A DNA stretch of 64,000 nt from the NCBI RefSeq assembly GCF_027359415.1, contig NZ_CP114780.1, forward strand, positions 496,001-560,000, read 5' to 3'. The translations under genes were made by a program, and so were the position numbers. How positions within the stretch are numbered: position 1 is the stretch's first letter; every line of letters starts with the position of its first letter. Source of the stretch: Prochlorococcus marinus str. MIT 0918 (GTDB lineage Bacteria; Cyanobacteriota; Cyanobacteriia; PCC-6307; Cyanobiaceae). Positions 1,615 through 31,887 of the stretch are shown piece by piece. The notes under the pieces were generated by a model. It saw only the letters and a program-made list of their open reading frames with translations, was not told the DNA's origin and did no database searches.

Positions 1615-2436
1615 TTAACCAAATTTCCCTGATATATAATCTTTTGTAGCCTTTTGAACTGGAGCATTAAATATCTTTTTTGTTTCGCCAAATTCTACCA
1701 AATATCCAACTTTCCCATCATGAGAACCTTCTTTCTTAGAAGCATTGAAGAATGCTGTCATATCACTAACTCTTAAAGCCTGTTGCATATTATGCGTAAC
1801 AATAATAATTGTATATTTCTTTTTAAGTTCATGAATAGTTTCTTCGATTTTTATTGTAGATATAGGATCTAAAGCTGAACAAGGTTCATCCATTAAAATT
1901 ACATCTGGCTCTATTGCAATTGTCCTAGCAATACATAATCTTTGCTGTTGGCCTCCTGATAATGAGTATCCACTTTCTTTCAATTTATCTTTACATTCAT
2001 CCCATACTGCAGCTTTTCTTAGCGATTGTTCTACTAAATCATCCATATCTCCATTAAATCCATTAATTCTTGCCCCAAAAGCGATATTTTCAAAAATTGT
2101 TTTTGGAAAAGGGTTTGGTTGTTGAAAAACCATTCCAATTTTTCTTCTTACTTCTACAGGATCAATATCTAAAGAATATAAATCAATACCTTCAAATAAT
2201 ATTTTTCCCTTAAGCTGGCAACCTGCAATTAAATCGTTCATTCGATTTAAAGACCTAAGAATAGTAGACTTGCCACAACCAGAAGGACCTATTAGTGCCG
2301 TTACTTTTCCTTTAGGAATATCGCAAAATACATTCCTAACTGCATCCGAATCTCGATAACTTATAGTTACATTTTGAAGTGAAATTGAAGTCTCTTGACC
2401 AGAAGATTCTTTGGATAGCGTATTAGTACTATTCAT
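1615..2436 (-). CDS. pstB: Phosphate ABC transporter ATP-binding protein PstB
   Basis: The 273-residue ATPase of the high-affinity phosphate importer, energising PstC/PstA at the inner face of the plasma membrane. The Walker A motif GPSGCGKST is at about residues 50-58, the Q-loop lies in [11 protein letters not shown], the ABC signature is [17 protein letters not shown], the Walker B is [13 protein letters not shown], and the switch histidine is in VTHNMQQA. Length and motifs match PstB throughout. It is the last gene of pstC-pstA-pstB, eight bases after pstA. No PstS binding protein or PhoU follows it, so those must be encoded elsewhere. Confidence 0.97.
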
Positions 2437-2444
2437 TTTTCATA

Positions 2445-3338
2445 TTATCCCTCAGAGGTAATATGGCTAACATATCTAGAAATAATATTCATGGCCAATA
2501 ATATAATAACTAGTACAAAAGAAGCTGCCCATGCAAGTTCATTTTGAGCTTGATATGGCTCCAAGGCAAAGTTATAAATAAGAACAGAAAGAGAAGCCAT
2601 TTCGTAAAACAAGTCTCCAAAACCTGTTATGTAATAACGAGAAAATAATGCCGTAAAAAGTAATGGTGCTGTTTCGCCAGCAGCTCTAGCTAAGCCCAAA
2701 ACAATCCCTGTAGATATAGTTCTAAAAGCTGCAGGTAAAGTTATTTTTACAACTGTTGTGAACATAGAAGCACCTATACCTAATGCTCCTTTCCTTAGAT
2801 CATCTGATACTAACTTAAGTCCTTCATCTGTAGTTTTAATAACTGTTGGTAGCATTAAAATAGACAATGCCATACCTCCTGCAATGCCACTAAAAGTACT
2901 TCCAAAAAGTATTTTAGTTGCTACTATCACAGCATAAATAAATACACCTGCAATAATAGAAGGAACTCCTGCTAGAACATTAGTTCCAAATCTAATAAAT
3001 TTAGAGAATGCACCTCCTTTGGAATATTCAGCTAAATAAATTCCACCTCCAACCCCAATTGGTATAGATATTAATGAAGCAATAGTAGATATAATTAAGG
3101 TCCCCACAATTGCCGGTCCAATTCCTCCAGCTGAAAACATATCATCCCCTGGTGGTTCAGGTTCTAACAATAAAATATCAAGATTAATTTGAGAACCTCC
3201 TTTAATAATTACATATACAATTACTGAAATAAGTGGTATAACAGCAATAATTGCAAATAGAGCAGATATTATAGTAAATAATCTCTCATATAAATTCCTT
3301 TTAGAATTAAGATTGTATGTAAGTTTTGATCTATTCAT
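2445..3338 (-). CDS. pstA: Phosphate ABC transporter permease PstA
   Basis: A 297-residue inner-membrane permease with about six transmembrane helices, the first near residues 20-45. It forms the phosphate channel together with PstC. The typical PstA pieces are visible: GGIGPAIVGTLIISTIASLISIP, and the EAA-like cytoplasmic loop around GALGIGASMFTTVVKITLPAA followed by GIVLGLARAAGETAPLLFTA, which contacts PstB. Its start abuts the pstC stop (shared base 3338), so translation is probably coupled. The short cytoplasmic N-terminus is rich in Lys/Arg, as expected from the positive-inside rule. Confidence 0.95.
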   Translation of the reverse strand: MNRSKLTYNLNSKRNLYERLFTIISALFAIIAVIPLISVIVYVIIKGGSQINLDILLLEPEPPGDDMFSAGGIGPAIVGTLIISTIASLISIPIGVGGGIYLAEYSKGGAFSKFIRFGTNVLAGVPSIIAGVFIYAVIVATKILFGSTFSGIAGGMALSILMLPTVIKTTDEGLKLVSDDLRKGALGIGASMFTTVVKITLPAAFRTISTGIVLGLARAAGETAPLLFTALFSRYYITGFGDLFYEMASLSVLIYNFALEPYQAQNELAWAASFVLVIILLAMNIISRYVSHITSEG

Positions 3339-26012: not shown

Positions 26013-26717
26013 TCAAGATTTGGATTCTGAAATCCATTCGTCAGAAGGATCTTCTTTATCTAATTTTGCTAAAGAAGGAAAACTCTTCTTAATCATTGAA
26101 ATAACTTCATTTCTAATATGTTTCCTACAAGCATCAACAGTATCTTTCTCAAAAACTGGATATTCAGATACTGCATCTAAAACCCCATCTCTTAAAGGCT
26201 GCCAATTTTTACCCTCACTTTCGTTATATGCAGAAAGAGCTTTATTGAAGTCAAAATCAAATATTTTTACTTTCTCCTTATATTTCTCAACTAAAAAAGA
26301 AACAAGCTTTTCTCTAAAAGGTATAAGAAGTTTTGATTTCAACGTATCAGGCAACCCTAAAACCGGTTCATAATAATCAAGTGTTCTTAGCTCTTCCTCT
26401 AAAAGAACAGGCCATATACCTTTGGAACCTTCCGATATATCAAATAAGCTTTCTGCCTTATTCATTTCAGAAAGAAAAAACTTTATTCGACAGTAGTAAG
26501 ATTTCTCACTAAGTGGCTTTTTAACAGAAGGTTTTCCAGATTTAATTTCAGGTAATGCTGATTCTGCTTTTCTTAAAAATTGCCTGTCTTCTCGCTCAAG
26601 ATTTATAGCTCCCCATCTCTGTCGATAATCCCATAATTCTGTATAACGTAAGATATCGTGCTGGGACCAACCTAGCAGTTTTAATTCATCTGCACGGTGA
26701 GTTAATTCCTTAGCCAC
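26013..26717 (-). CDS. Conserved cyanobacterial protein, function unknown
   Basis: A 234-residue soluble protein starting at GTG. The N-terminus reads ADELKLLGWSQHDILRYTELWDYRQRWGAINLEREDRQFLRKAE, a Trp/Arg-rich helical region repeated in style through the protein. No enzymatic motif, cysteine cluster or membrane helix is visible. Its C-terminus is acidic. It ends 33 bases before the metY start on the same strand, so it may be co-transcribed with the methionine genes without being part of the pathway. I do not recognise the family by name. Confidence 0.7.
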   Translation of the reverse strand: MAKELTHRADELKLLGWSQHDILRYTELWDYRQRWGAINLEREDRQFLRKAESALPEIKSGKPSVKKPLSEKSYYCRIKFFLSEMNKAESLFDISEGSKGIWPVLLEEELRTLDYYEPVLGLPDTLKSKLLIPFREKLVSFLVEKYKEKVKIFDFDFNKALSAYNESEGKNWQPLRDGVLDAVSEYPVFEKDTVDACRKHIRNEVISMIKKSFPSLAKLDKEDPSDEWISESKS

Positions 26718-26815: not shown

Positions 26816-27952
26816 TCACATACTTAAACTATTAGTAATTTTAATGACTTTATTCCATTGAGCATGAATACTCTTCAATAATGCAAACTGTACTTTAGCT
26901 TTGTAAAGATTTTGTGTAGGATAATTTGAATTAAAATAAGTATTCCCACAAAGATAATCAGTCAAAAATCTAATTCCTAATTCATATGTAATAGTTCGAA
27001 TACTATAAGGTAGATAAAAAATATCTGCTTTAGTCAATTTATCCTTATATATAGAGAAATAACCATTAAGAGCTGACTGATAATAGTTTAAATCAAAATG
27101 TACAATTGATATGTCTTCAGGTTCTTCCCCTAAAGGGTTACAGCATGACCTTAAACAATCAGCTAAATCAAAAAGAAGGTATCCCATTTGAAAAGTATCA
27201 AGGTCTATTAGAGAGACAACCTTATTTGTTGAAAAATCAAACAAAAAATTGCTAACTTTAGGATCTCCATGTATCAGTCTGAAGGATAAAGATTTTCTTG
27301 AAGAAGAATTAATAAGAGAAAAAGCTTCATTCTTATTTAAAGATACAAACTTTAAAACTAAATCAATCTCTTTTAATATCTTATGATTATGTATTTCATT
27401 CTGACGTAAAGATGTAACAACAGAGTAAAGTTGTGAAAGATATTTGGGTGTGTTATGGAAATTACTAATTGTAGTTATATAATTATCTGGATTTGCTTTA
27501 ATTGTTAAGAGATGAAAAATTGCAAGGCCTTCTAAGAGATAATATGCTTGAGAATCAGAAGTAATAGTTTCAATAGTCTTTGTAAAGTCTATATACTCAA
27601 ATGATCTCCAATAAACATCATCAATTAGCTTATAATTAGTTTTATCTACAATATTTTTTATTAACTTAGGGAAAAACCATTTTCTAGGATATCTTAATAA
27701 TACTTGATCTAGATTAGTCAAAATATTATCCTCTAATTTAGAATAGTTATCTATAATATCTTTAGGGTTTTTAAAAACATCTGAGTTTATTGACTGAAGT
27801 ATAAATTTTTTATTAATAGAGATTGAGTCAGTTGAAACTAAGAAAGTATTATTAATATTTCCAGAATTAATAGCTTTTATATCTAATATGTGATTGTTTG
27901 TAAAAAAAGTAGAAGCTATCTTTCTTATATTTTGTAAATTTTCTTTAGTCAA
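26816..27952 (-). CDS. NahK-like sugar kinase (aminoglycoside phosphotransferase fold)
   Basis: A 378-residue protein of the APH/choline-kinase fold. Residues 29-39 (NSGNINNTFLV) form the ATP loop. The catalytic loop is LIHGDPKVSNFLFD (Asp230, Asn235) and the metal-binding segment is LIDLDTFQMG (Asp250, Asp252). The continuation FDLADCLRSCCNPLGEEPED matches N-acetylhexosamine 1-kinases (NahK) better than drug or choline kinases, so a sugar or sugar-like substrate is likely. The start is TTG, 17 bases after the upstream dehydrogenase-like gene, hence an operon. Substrate unproven. Confidence 0.78.
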   Translation of the reverse strand: MTKENLQNIRKIASTFFTNNHILDIKAINSGNINNTFLVSTDSISINKKFILQSINSDVFKNPKDIIDNYSKLEDNILTNLDQVLLRYPRKWFFPKLIKNIVDKTNYKLIDDVYWRSFEYIDFTKTIETITSDSQAYYLLEGLAIFHLLTIKANPDNYITTISNFHNTPKYLSQLYSVVTSLRQNEIHNHKILKEIDLVLKFVSLNKNEAFSLINSSSRKSLSFRLIHGDPKVSNFLFDFSTNKVVSLIDLDTFQMGYLLFDLADCLRSCCNPLGEEPEDISIVHFDLNYYQSALNGYFSIYKDKLTKADIFYLPYSIRTITYELGIRFLTDYLCGNTYFNSNYPTQNLYKAKVQFALLKSIHAQWNKVIKITNSLSM

Positions 27953-27969
27953 TTAAATTAAGGAGATTT

Positions 27970-29502
27970 CTAATTAGAAAAGTATTTGTCAAACATGTTA
28001 ATAACTTCTAGATGTGAATTTACGGAGTTATTTTCTTGAGAAGATTCATGAATATTTAAAGACAAGTATAAAGAGTGAATATCCTTAGATTCAAAATTAT
28101 TGGTATAAATAGATTCACATAAGAAAGACAAGATATCATTTTTATCTAGATTATTCAAAAGTTCGTTCATCCTTGAAGAATTTTTTGGACGAACTGACTC
28201 CTGACAAAAATTTGTCAACTCTCTACTATTAGTCATTACATTAAAAACATGCCTCTTACATTCTAATGAGGAAAATATACACATATAGAGTAAATTTATC
28301 ATTGAAGAATCATGATTTGGTATTGAGTATGCTCGTAATATATCTGGCCAAAATCGTAAAGAATTAATTCCTTCTAAGGCTCCTTTCTGAAGTCCTTTTG
28401 ACTCACACCAATTTATTAGCTCATCCAAATCATTAGGACATCTTTTTAAAGACATCATGCGATCTGCTAGTATTTGTCCTACTTGAAAATTCCTAGTAGG
28501 GGAACCAGAAATAGGCAGCATCATACTTCCTTTTACATCAGCAATCATTGCTGTTAATTGAGAAAATGTATGATCTCTCACCTTTTCCATATCTCCATCT
28601 CTAGACAAAGCTGCTTCAATCCTTTGAACACCATAACCTATATCAGTTAAAGATAAACTAGATTTTTTATATAAATCATTCCGATCTAATCTACTCATTG
28701 AAACAGTAGCTGCTTGATCTAGGCATTGATTGAGCAATAAAGTTAAGAGAGTAGGTAATAGACCAGGATTATTACAATGATAAGTGTGTCCAAATCCTGC
28801 AAATATTGAAGAGACATTCTTTGCAGACTTAATATATTGACCTTCTACATTATGTACTCCAGAAGAAACTTGAATATTAGGGGAAAGATTATTTAATAAC
28901 CTTGCACCTATTAAAGCTGTAAATGAATCAGGATGACAAAAATTAGCTGTAAAACTATCCAAAGGGTTTCTTAAAGCTCCGTGTCTATGAAAACCTGAGA
29001 AGAATGCTAAATGTGAGTTTTTTTGGCATAAAAGAAATGAAGATTGTTCTGAATTTCCATATGTAAACGAACCAACTAAACATGCCAATACAACATTTGT
29101 TCTACCAAGCTTATCTCTTAGATGAAGTGCCTCCTGTAAATCCGATTCAATATGATTACTATTAGAACTTAATACTACTAAATCACATATCTCTATTAAA
29201 TCACTTAAAGTGTAAGCACGTATTTTGGAACCATCTTTATAAGTTGACATTTCTATCATCTTATTTAGATATTCTTCTTTTAATTCATTTATAGATTGTT
29301 TAGAAAATGCTCCAAGGAGATTTCTTCCAGGCCTAGGTGCTAAAAGAAGATTATTCTTATTTGTTTGCATTGCACAGTTATAAGCTAAAGATGCTGGATA
29401 TAGTCCTACACTATAAAAACCTACTTTTCCATCCTCTAATTCCTTTAGCCTTAAAGCTATAGTTTTTTTATCAAGTGAATCGGTAAAAAAATTATTTTGC
29501 AT
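27970..29502 (-). CDS. Glycerol-3-phosphate-dehydrogenase-like protein, function unknown
   Basis: A 510-residue protein from the ATG at 29502; a TTG two codons earlier is less likely. The N-terminus KVGFYSVGLYPASLAYNCAMQ looks like a Rossmann strand-helix with an altered Gly motif, and VVLSSNSNHIESDLQEAL and VVLACLVGSF fit later strands. The middle segment SAKNVSSIFAGFGHTYHCNNPGL resembles the substrate region of GpsA-type enzymes (ALKNVIAIAAG), followed by a long helical C-terminus. This suggests a divergent dehydrogenase of the 6-phosphogluconate-dehydrogenase-like superfamily. It precedes the NahK-like kinase in one operon and is divergent from the StpA-like phosphatase. Confidence 0.6.
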   Translation of the reverse strand: MQNNFFTDSLDKKTIALRLKELEDGKVGFYSVGLYPASLAYNCAMQTNKNNLLLAPRPGRNLLGAFSKQSINELKEEYLNKMIEMSTYKDGSKIRAYTLSDLIEICDLVVLSSNSNHIESDLQEALHLRDKLGRTNVVLACLVGSFTYGNSEQSSFLLCQKNSHLAFFSGFHRHGALRNPLDSFTANFCHPDSFTALIGARLLNNLSPNIQVSSGVHNVEGQYIKSAKNVSSIFAGFGHTYHCNNPGLLPTLLTLLLNQCLDQAATVSMSRLDRNDLYKKSSLSLTDIGYGVQRIEAALSRDGDMEKVRDHTFSQLTAMIADVKGSMMLPISGSPTRNFQVGQILADRMMSLKRCPNDLDELINWCESKGLQKGALEGINSLRFWPDILRAYSIPNHDSSMINLLYMCIFSSLECKRHVFNVMTNSRELTNFCQESVRPKNSSRMNELLNNLDKNDILSFLCESIYTNNFESKDIHSLYLSLNIHESSQENNSVNSHLEVINMFDKYFSN

Positions 29503-29673
29503 TGGCAAGTGTGAATGATTCTACAAAACTAGAATTGCTTTAGATTAACGCATAAACAATAATATCTTATTACTTATTAAAAGCTTTGGCAAGTTAAGAA
29601 AAACGAGAAAGAAAACAAGCACTTGCTACAAAAAGAAGTATGATAGTCCCATAATTTTTAATTATTTTATATT

Positions 29674-30891
29674 ATGTTAATAAAAGAAGAATCAGATATT
29701 AGTTTCAAAAAAATTTCAACTAAAAAGAATATACTAATAATTCAAGATATCGATGGTGTTTGCATACCACTAGTAAAAGATCCACTTCTTAGAAAAATAG
29801 ATCCAAATTATATAGAATCAATTGCTAAGCTAGATGATGAATTTGCAGTACTAACTTGTGGTGAACATGAAGGCGAAAGAGGTGTAAATAGAATAATTGA
29901 AAGAGCTTTAAATTCAAATAATAAAATTAAAGAACAAGGCCTTTATTTACCTGGCCTAGCGGCCTGTGGTGTTGAATACCAAGATAAACATGGAAATATG
30001 GAATTACTTGGTTTAAGTATCGAAGAAAATAAATTCCTTAGCGAGGCACCAAAATATATGAAGAAATTATTAGAAAAAGAATTAGTTAATAGTATTCCTT
30101 TTAAAGATAAAGAACAAGCTAATTATGAAATAAAAAAGGCAATATGTGACACACGTTTTTCTCCTGCAATTAATCTTAACTCTCTCTTTAATATTTTTGA
30201 AAATGATCTTAAAAGCAAAATAAAACTGCAAGAAATCATGCTTCGAGTAATGAGTGAGATTATAGAAATAGCTTATACAAAAGGATTTACTGATTCATTT
30301 TATCTACACATTTCACCAAATTTAGGTATAAAAAATGGAAATGAAATAATAAAGTTTGCAACTAAAGAAGATATAGGGACAACTGATATACAGCTTATAA
30401 TTAAAGGCGCTTTAAAAGAATGTGGATTACTAGTTTTACTGAATAAATATATTAAAAATAAATTTGGATATTATCCATTTGGTCATAATTTTAGTATTAG
30501 AAATGCTCCTAAAGGTATTGATGGTCTTATAAGTCTATGCAAAAAAAAGATTAGGCCCGAAATAATGCCTATATTAATAGGTGTAGGCGATACTATTACA
30601 TCGAATAAAGATATTTTAGAAAATAAATGGCTTAGAGGAGGAAGTGATAGAGGTTTTCTTACACTAATACAAGAGCTTGGCAAGGCATATAAAAAAGAAA
30701 ACATAATTATATTTGTAGATAGTAGCTTTGGCGAAGTTTATAGACCTTCCACCAAAGACCAAACTCTTACAGGCATAACTGATCCTTATGACATACTAAA
30801 ATTAAATGTAATAATGAATAATGGACCTAAGGAATATATCAAATGGGTTAATAAATTTTGTAACAACCGGTATAATATGAGGAAAAAATAA
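29674..30891 (+). CDS. Glucosylglycerol-3-phosphate phosphatase-like protein (StpA/GgpP family)
   Basis: A 405-residue haloacid-dehalogenase-type phosphatase. The nucleophile motif is IIQDIDGVCIPLVKDPL with Asp25 and Asp27. LTCGEHEGERGVNR, QGLYLPGLAACGVEYQD, and the late motif IGVGDTITSN ... GGSDRGFLTLIQELG match my memory of the StpA/GgpP family, which dephosphorylates glucosylglycerol-3-phosphate in salt-stressed cyanobacteria. No glucosylglycerol-phosphate synthase is present in this window. The gene is divergent from the dehydrogenase-like/kinase pair across a 171-base gap that could hold both promoters. The substrate may therefore differ from the textbook one. Confidence 0.78.
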   Translation: MLIKEESDISFKKISTKKNILIIQDIDGVCIPLVKDPLLRKIDPNYIESIAKLDDEFAVLTCGEHEGERGVNRIIERALNSNNKIKEQGLYLPGLAACGVEYQDKHGNMELLGLSIEENKFLSEAPKYMKKLLEKELVNSIPFKDKEQANYEIKKAICDTRFSPAINLNSLFNIFENDLKSKIKLQEIMLRVMSEIIEIAYTKGFTDSFYLHISPNLGIKNGNEIIKFATKEDIGTTDIQLIIKGALKECGLLVLLNKYIKNKFGYYPFGHNFSIRNAPKGIDGLISLCKKKIRPEIMPILIGVGDTITSNKDILENKWLRGGSDRGFLTLIQELGKAYKKENIIIFVDSSFGEVYRPSTKDQTLTGITDPYDILKLNVIMNNGPKEYIKWVNKFCNNRYNMRKK

Positions 30892-30957: not shown

Positions 30958-31887
30958 ATGTCTTTCCCAAGCATAAAGAGGAATGCACTTGAAACACTAC
31001 AAGTCAACCTAGGTTACAAATGCAACCAAGCATGTATACATTGTCATGTTGATGCAAGTCCTTTTAGGGAGGAAATGATGAATGAGCATAATATTAAATT
31101 AATACCTAAGATTATTAATCAATATCTAATTAAGACCCTTGATCTAACTGGTGGTGCTCCTGAAATGCATCCTCTTTTTAAATCATTAATAACTGAGGTA
31201 AGTAAATTAGGAATAGAAATCATTGATAGATGTAATTTAACAATCCTAAAAGAAAAGGGTTATGAAGACATGGCTAAATTTCTAGCACATAATAAAGTCA
31301 GGATCATTGCATCATTACCTTGCTATTTAGAAGAGAATGTAGATGCTCAGAGAGGTAAAAGTGTTTTTCAAAAGAGCATTGAATCTTTAAAGTTATTAAA
31401 TAGTCTTGGTTATGCTAAAAAAGATAAAGGCCTTAAATTAGATCTAGTATATAATCCTACTGGAGCCAATCTACCTCCTCCTCAAAAGCAACTAGAAGAT
31501 ACATATAAATATGAATTAAAGAAAAGGTATGATATAGATTTTAATAATCTATTAGTTTTAGCAAATATGCCAATTAAAAGGTTCTCAAACTTCTTAAAAA
31601 AAGAAGGTAAACTTGAGGAATATAAATTACTACTTAGAAATAATCATAATGATGCAAATCTAAATTCTGTAATGTGCAAGAATACAATCAGCGTAGATTG
31701 GGAAGGAAAATTATTTGATTGTGATTTCAACCAACAACTATCTATAAGTAGTAAGATAAAGCCAAATACACTTGAAGGTTTATCCAAAGATGCAATAAAC
31801 ATCAGAGGCATAGAAATATCTGTTGATAATCACTGCTTTGGATGTACAGCTGGTAATGGATCTAGTTGCGGAGGAGCTTTAACTTAG
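30958..31887 (+). CDS. arsS: ArsS-type radical SAM protein (arsenosugar biosynthesis)
   Basis: A 309-residue radical SAM enzyme. The 4Fe-4S motif is CNQACIHCH with GYK before it and VDASPFREE after it, at about residues 22-39. DLTGGAPEMHP is the glycine-rich SAM motif. The C-terminal part carries further cysteines (MCKNTISVDWEGKLFDCDFN and HCFGCTAGNGSSCGG), probably ligating auxiliary cluster iron. These blocks are specific to the ArsS family, reported to join an adenosyl group to dimethylarsenic in arsenosugar synthesis. Some relatives use selenocysteine; here all positions are Cys. It follows the phosphatase gene by 66 bases. No ArsM adjoins it. Confidence 0.88.
   Translation: MSFPSIKRNALETLQVNLGYKCNQACIHCHVDASPFREEMMNEHNIKLIPKIINQYLIKTLDLTGGAPEMHPLFKSLITEVSKLGIEIIDRCNLTILKEKGYEDMAKFLAHNKVRIIASLPCYLEENVDAQRGKSVFQKSIESLKLLNSLGYAKKDKGLKLDLVYNPTGANLPPPQKQLEDTYKYELKKRYDIDFNNLLVLANMPIKRFSNFLKKEGKLEEYKLLLRNNHNDANLNSVMCKNTISVDWEGKLFDCDFNQQLSISSKIKPNTLEGLSKDAINIRGIEISVDNHCFGCTAGNGSSCGGALT

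Follow-up and report, generated by a model that had tools for sequence, protein, structure and literature searches.

A divergent protein of glycerol-3-phosphate dehydrogenase fold beside an orphan ggpP gene as a candidate lipid-backbone enzyme of marine picocyanobacteria

Bacteria with ordinary ester lipids require glycerol-3-phosphate, and the established substrate of the phosphatase GgpP (StpA) is glucosylglycerol-3-phosphate. The usual NADPH-dependent enzyme for glycerol-3-phosphate, GpsA (EC 1.1.1.94), is unannotated in three Prochlorococcus strains and in WH7803 in the accessible part of PMC3369817, and the portion of PMC9361551 available to us gives gpsA to freshwater picocyanobacteria and an FAD-type glpA to marine ones; the source of the lipid backbone in such cells thus appears as an open gap. 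An orphan ggpP in Prochlorococcus, together with the idea that it has a role in sucrose metabolism, has already been described (PMC11505929, likewise available in part). Here we analyse a stretch of 64,000 nucleotides from Prochlorococcus marinus str. MIT 0918 (the window; bases 496001-560000 of a single-contig genome of 1,789,313 bases, 99.99% complete), in which such an orphan ggpP lies head to head with the gene for a 510-residue protein of predicted glycerol-3-phosphate dehydrogenase (GPDH) fold, here called DH. In the literature searched, parts of papers, we did not encounter DH proposed as the enzyme that would fill this gap; KEGG, UniProt and Cyanorak lay outside that search.

DH is encoded on the minus strand at 27970..29502; its open reading frame can be read from a TTG at 29508, with the ATG at 29502 as the conserved start. 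The phosphatase gene (29674..30891, plus strand) diverges from it across a shared intergenic region of about 170 bp (29503..29673, no strand), in which a promoter scan did not rise above shuffled sequences. Downstream of DH, on the same strand and after a gap of 17 bp, lies a gene for a NahK-like sugar kinase (26816..27952). Relatives show purifying selection on each of the three genes (dN/dS 0.07-0.32), which are thus not chance reading frames. An earlier note on this DNA had recognised a GgpP-like phosphatase opposite a DH-kinase pair, a GpsA-type segment with an altered Rossmann glycine motif and a NahK-type catalytic loop, with no GgpS in view; each of these identifications was borne out by the profile, structure and genome searches given below. 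It had also joined the three genes into an unrecognised route to a compatible solute, a proposal that fared differently.

DH has no match in Pfam, in NCBIfam or among PDB sequences. Its 24 aligned relatives have a mean column identity of 72%, and dN/dS for the gene is 0.07-0.16. In the best AlphaFold model (pLDDT 80.4, pTM 0.79; second-best model 69.9), 27970-29502 encodes a Rossmann domain followed by the all-helical C-terminal domain of the GPDH fold and by an extra C-terminal helical part. Compared with PDB structures in VIA-align, the model gave 16 best rows that were all GPDH (Z 22.2-28.0, 298-335 residues aligned, sequence identity 11-15%), the first other family being ketopantoate reductase at Z 14.8, and the top nine Foldseek matches were also all GPDH (E 2.7e-8 to 5.6e-7). 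Across 114 distinct members, ranging from HL Prochlorococcus to Xenococcaceae, the residues S31, G33, R57, R60, K225, K228, N229, D310, D322, R337 and N338 are invariant. The order K-N, D, R-N resembles that of LKN, GD and SRN in GpsA, and the motifs stand in register over 301 columns of a permissive profile alignment that is itself non-significant (E 0.18). The glycine motif reads S-x-G-x-x-P (S31-x-G33 in 114 of 114 members, P36 in 113) and not G-x-G-x-x-G; R57 and R60, which follow the second strand, may contact the 2'-phosphate if NADPH is the cofactor. Because the canonical glycine motif and the curated profiles were tested and neither was found in DH, we do not file it as a member of GpsA; the claim is that it may work like one. 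Two Prochlorococcus single-cell DH genes (L112:9941-11527 and L094:9968-11506) sit on unusually long tree branches, and three contigs from metagenome-assembled genomes labelled Gammaproteobacteria (L052, L072, L082) carry DH sequences that fall among marine Synechococcus or LLIV-type Prochlorococcus; these contigs look mis-binned.

Canonical GpsA was searched for with the C-terminal model PF07479 in 31 genomes of the host family and 14 control genomes. The model was matched in ten of the controls and in eight of the family genomes (G005, G008, G009, G018, G022, G023, G024 and G030); it detected no canonical GpsA in the MIT 0918 genome or in the near-complete genomes G003, G004, G010, G017 and G029. 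Since canonical GpsA in the family retains the glycine motif, LKN and SRNY, it would be easily recognised if present. DH alone was found in 15 of the 31 genomes, GpsA alone in four, both in four and neither in eight. One or the other is present in 16 of the 17 near-complete genomes, and the exception, G013, is cut at a contig end: its GgpP match (2052-3215) lies on a 3,324-base contig that stops about 110 bp further on, where DH should start. We propose that DH replaces GpsA because, contig ends aside, no near-complete genome lacks both.

DH and GgpP belong together. Among 151 genomes of the family, DH occurs in 75, GgpP in 78 (75 over the cut-off) and the kinase in 102; GgpS clears its cut-off in 61, or 65 if weak matches are counted. 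In the 94 near-complete genomes of this sample, compared without correction for relatedness, DH and GgpP are both present in 52 and both absent in 38; DH occurs alone in one and GgpP alone in three (exceptions G013, G073, G083 and G102). Where both could be placed by coordinates (72 genomes, the fragmentary G069 excluded), the two genes lie less than 1 kb apart in 55, 1-5 kb apart in eight, far apart in six and on different contigs in three. The divergent pair recurs through Prochlorococcus and marine Synechococcus, not at every locus: the GgpP cluster was in view in 58 of 81 loci compared, that is, the window and 80 named loci (the best 80 of 291), a sample in which distant forms are under-represented and some loci run into contig ends. 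The complete genome of SynAce01 (G083) has DH and GgpS, and TIGR02399 found no GgpP in it.

Outside the family, DH is found in the company of glucosylglycerol genes. A class-wide draw of 252 genomes gave DH in 41, of which 28 belong to the family and 13 lie outside it, or 12 after one fragmentary match (G271, E 1e-3) was dropped. GgpS exceeds its cut-off in 11 of these 12 (exception G364), and GgpP is present in 11, with a fragment below the cut-off in G364 and none in G332; over the whole outside sample GgpP occurs in 46 genomes, the 74 matches of the draw minus the 28 within the family, out of about 222, a denominator that rests on 30 family genomes among the matches listed. In G203, ggpS, glpD and DH are consecutive, preceded on the opposite strand by ggpP, an FGGY kinase and a GHL5 hydrolase. 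RCC307 has a cluster of ggpS, four genes taken for a putative transporter, DH, ggpP and a GH13 enzyme, with glpD and glycerol kinase after them, the last two calls having been made on the RCC307-like locus L070 and carried over by synteny. Unlike G203, the profiled Xenococcaceae and Leptolyngbya loci have mixed DH neighbours and no glycerol genes. The gpsA listed beside ggpS, gghA, glpK and glpD in the legend to Fig. 6B of a 2019 review (PMC6753628), of which a part was available, may be the DH gene.

Taken together, it is fairly probable that DH is a divergent GPDH and the sole GpsA-type enzyme of this genome, that GgpP has been retained with another substrate, and that the kinase is separate. 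For reaction, cofactor, direction and indispensability we infer the following: DH would reduce dihydroxyacetone phosphate (DHAP) with NAD(P)H to sn-glycerol-3-phosphate and, as the only GpsA-type enzyme here and in most marine Prochlorococcus and Synechococcus, would provide every glycerolipid with its backbone; where GgpS remains, it would also supply the acceptor for glucosylglycerol synthesis. DH appears to stem from a set of glucosylglycerol genes (ggpS, glpD, glpK, ggpP) and to have taken over upon the loss of gpsA. The balance tips slightly towards the broader proposition that a GPDH branch unrecognisable by sequence was recruited from this set, changed its nucleotide motif and, in marine Synechococcus and Prochlorococcus, took over from GpsA as sole source of the lipid backbone.

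Several observations weigh against this reading. The census of GpsA used a single model of its C-terminal part. The presence of DH and that of GpsA are not statistically exclusive (Fisher p 0.68 for the 31 genomes, 0.25 for the 17 near-complete ones), four genomes carry both, and the eight with neither are all at most 90% complete, incomplete or fragmented. Glycerol kinase is reported in marine strains in the available part of PMC9361551, and there glpK and glpA could conceivably provide glycerol-3-phosphate, with glycerol as the starting material. The S-x-G-x-x-P motif leaves cofactor binding presumptive, and the weakest stretch of the model, residues 291-313 with pLDDT below 50, separates the two parts of the putative active site. 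PF07479 touches three of 24 DH members at a best E of 0.0087, below significance, and profile-profile comparison of DH with GpsA was not significant (E 0.18 permissive, 0.23 default, probability below 1%). A proof of identity with GpsA by this last approach (E 0.18-0.23) accordingly failed.

The phosphatase of the window is, by its sequence, beyond doubt GgpP/StpA (TIGR02399 525.2 bits against a cut-off of 365.5; PF09506 E 3.4e-157), and TIGR02398 found no GgpS in the complete 1.79-Mb MIT 0918 genome. Its HAD motif, D25-x-D27-G-V-C, is invariant, with both aspartates constant in 52 sequences, in which 59 columns are invariant overall. A tree of these sequences (27 from GgpS-less and 25 from GgpS-bearing genomes) needs three changes of label, two of them forced by well-supported branches, from which it follows that GgpP outlived GgpS at least twice; the orphans form a 23-member clade (100/98), a group of MIT9313 type next to a relative that has GgpS (99/89), and a single sequence from the 64% complete genome G036. 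Orphan GgpP remains under constraint, six orphan pairs giving dN/dS 0.15-0.31. Near-constant columns number 102 in the GgpS-bearing and 100 in the orphan group; 16 columns are nearly fixed where GgpS is present and variable in orphans, and nine show the opposite pattern. Position 214 holds A throughout the 25 rows with GgpS, and 23 of the 27 orphans have S or M there, a shift that hints at a changed substrate. GgpP would be the former second enzyme of glucosylglycerol synthesis, kept after the loss of ggpS and now hydrolysing some other sugar phosphate, a substrate that we likewise infer. Glucosylglycerate phosphate need not be invoked, as MIT 0918 has GpgS (NF040724 383.7 bits, below the cut-off of 700) and GpgP (NF001217 390.9 bits, above 373) in one locus; with NF010496 no genome exceeded the cut-off for GpgS, and that model served only for locating the gene. 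The locus (L200:4169-7980, outside the window) comprises gpgS, gpgP and a sucrose-phosphorylase-like GH13 gene.

The best published guess for the substrate would be sucrose-6-phosphate, orphan GgpP standing in where sucrose-phosphate synthase (SPS) has lost its phosphatase domain; this is a speculation of PMC11505929, as far as its available text goes. The idea is compatible with the joint reading given above and is possible, the chances lying somewhat against it. Among 122 SPS-bearing genomes, 16 have a short SPS (frames of 461-496 aa) and no strong match to S6PP, and 15 of these 16 carry GgpP, the sole one without it being the 53% complete G033; MIT 0918 belongs to this group; its SPS frame measures 471 aa, and S6PP matches its GpgP weakly. 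GgpP is present in 12 of 12 near-complete short-SPS genomes against three of 13 with a separate sucrose-phosphate phosphatase (SPP), but as almost all near-complete marine genomes have GgpP, the 12 of 12 discriminates little; the counts fit the sucrose idea weakly. The predicted fold of GgpP is that of a trehalose-6-phosphatase-like HAD enzyme (best matches Z 15.7-22.1, with Foldseek in agreement), and trehalose-6-phosphatase too acts on a disaccharide phosphate; sucrose-phosphate phosphatase structures are absent among the listed fold matches, an absence that excludes nothing. Against the idea, the window phosphatase has no match to the S6PP profile PF05116, PF09506 being its only match at E up to 1, and orphan GgpP persists where SPS has a phosphatase domain (g29, g56 and G003). 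The idea that orphan GgpP persists solely to serve sucrose was rejected, since strains with fused SPS-SPP keep GgpP (also in Table 1 of PMC4390843, available in part).

It is unlikely that DH is instead an enzyme or regulator of the glucosylglycerol system that no longer makes, or never made, glycerol-3-phosphate, being either a pseudo-dehydrogenase that controls GgpP and binds glycerol-3-phosphate or a nucleotide, or a reductase acting on some other phosphorylated substrate. The glycine motif altered in all members would suit such a role, as would the tight linkage to ggpP (55 of 72 within 1 kb and eight more within 5 kb) and a length of 510 aa, with the extra helical part, against about 300-350 for most GPDH. 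However, K, N, D, R and N are invariant over all 114 members, fast-evolving HL Prochlorococcus included, and DH is kept in every near-complete GpsA-less genome tested except the contig-cut G013; control of GgpP would leave the lack of GpsA unexplained.

It is very unlikely that DH and GgpP represent a split version of the phosphatase-GPDH fusion of Dunaliella and make glycerol from DHAP. Dunaliella DsGPDH, a fusion of a HAD phosphatase with GPDH, occupies ranks 2 and 3 among the Foldseek matches of DH, and a HAD phosphatase gene and a GPDH-fold gene are divergent neighbours here; on the other side, GgpP best matches trehalose-6-phosphatases, and its established substrate is glucosylglycerol-3-phosphate.

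The kinase is probably a separate sugar kinase with an independent function. It matches Pfam APH (5.9e-13) and, among PDB sequences, N-acetylhexosamine 1-kinases alone (best 4wh1, 3.7e-34); HGD-x4-N and D-x-D are conserved in nearly all of 68 sequences. In the near-complete genomes, DH and kinase are both present in 46 and both absent in 12, with DH only in seven and kinase only in 29 (Fisher p 0.07); the kinase is thus missing from seven of 53 DH genomes, among them all five near-complete g17 (HL-type) genomes, and 29 of the 41 genomes that lack DH carry it. In L141 the next gene follows directly after DH, and there is no kinase. Identity to SS120 is 41% for the kinase, 70% for DH and 61% for GgpP, and in one pair its dN/dS of 0.32 (DH 0.08, GgpP 0.15) makes it the fastest of the three. 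Of the links drawn in the earlier note, that between DH and the phosphatase is borne out by their distribution, and that with the kinase is not, the kinase being gained and lost independently. That all three genes form one compatible-solute route is very unlikely, DH-kinase order recurring at numerous loci of Prochlorococcus and at some of Synechococcus but the kinase being distributed independently of DH and GgpP and diverging fastest, and gpgS and gpgP being at hand for glucosylglycerate; the whole three-gene pathway was rejected on its distribution across genomes. No unrecognised solute route is needed to explain DH, because the glucosylglycerol loci account for its origin and a more fundamental role falls to it where canonical GpsA is missing.

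In some Synechococcus, genes between DH and the kinase (clusters 22 and 26) resemble SbcD/SbcC types by eye and are taken as unrelated. Directly downstream of ggpP, at 30958-31887 on the plus strand, lies an ArsS-type radical SAM gene (arsenosugar biosynthesis; TIGR04167 443 bits), whose cluster is present in 51 of the 81 loci. Downstream of the kinase, a conserved protein of about 231 aa (26013-26717, minus strand; no Pfam or NCBIfam match; cluster in 53 of the 81 loci) is followed by met genes.

DH is a concrete candidate for the missing glycerol-3-phosphate maker in the ocean's commonest photosynthetic cells. If the proposal is correct, a stress-solute enzyme became a core lipid enzyme during genome reduction. 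It would also explain why a gene neighbouring ggpP is retained even in small HL-type genomes, and would add an unprofiled family to enzyme databases.

Set against known systems, the kinase resembles NahK (PDB 4wh1, 4ocj) in a full-length sequence match and the conserved kinase loop, but differs in host lineage and neighbouring genes. The phosphatase agrees with GgpP/StpA in profile score and HAD motif, whereas MIT 0918 is without GgpS and 16 columns, position 214 among them, vary in the orphans. The glucosylglycerol gene sets (ggpS, glpD, glpK, hydrolase) of G203 and RCC307 include DH; the MIT 0918 locus keeps only DH and ggpP. DH itself departs from GpsA and eukaryotic GPD1 (EC 1.1.1.94 and 1.1.1.8) in its 11-15% identity, its lack of a profile match, the S-x-G-x-x-P motif and a length of 510 aa with an insert and the C-terminal helical part, but shares with them the predicted fold over about 300-335 residues and a genomic link to glycerol-3-phosphate genes, and resembles them in the apparent order K-N, D, R-N.

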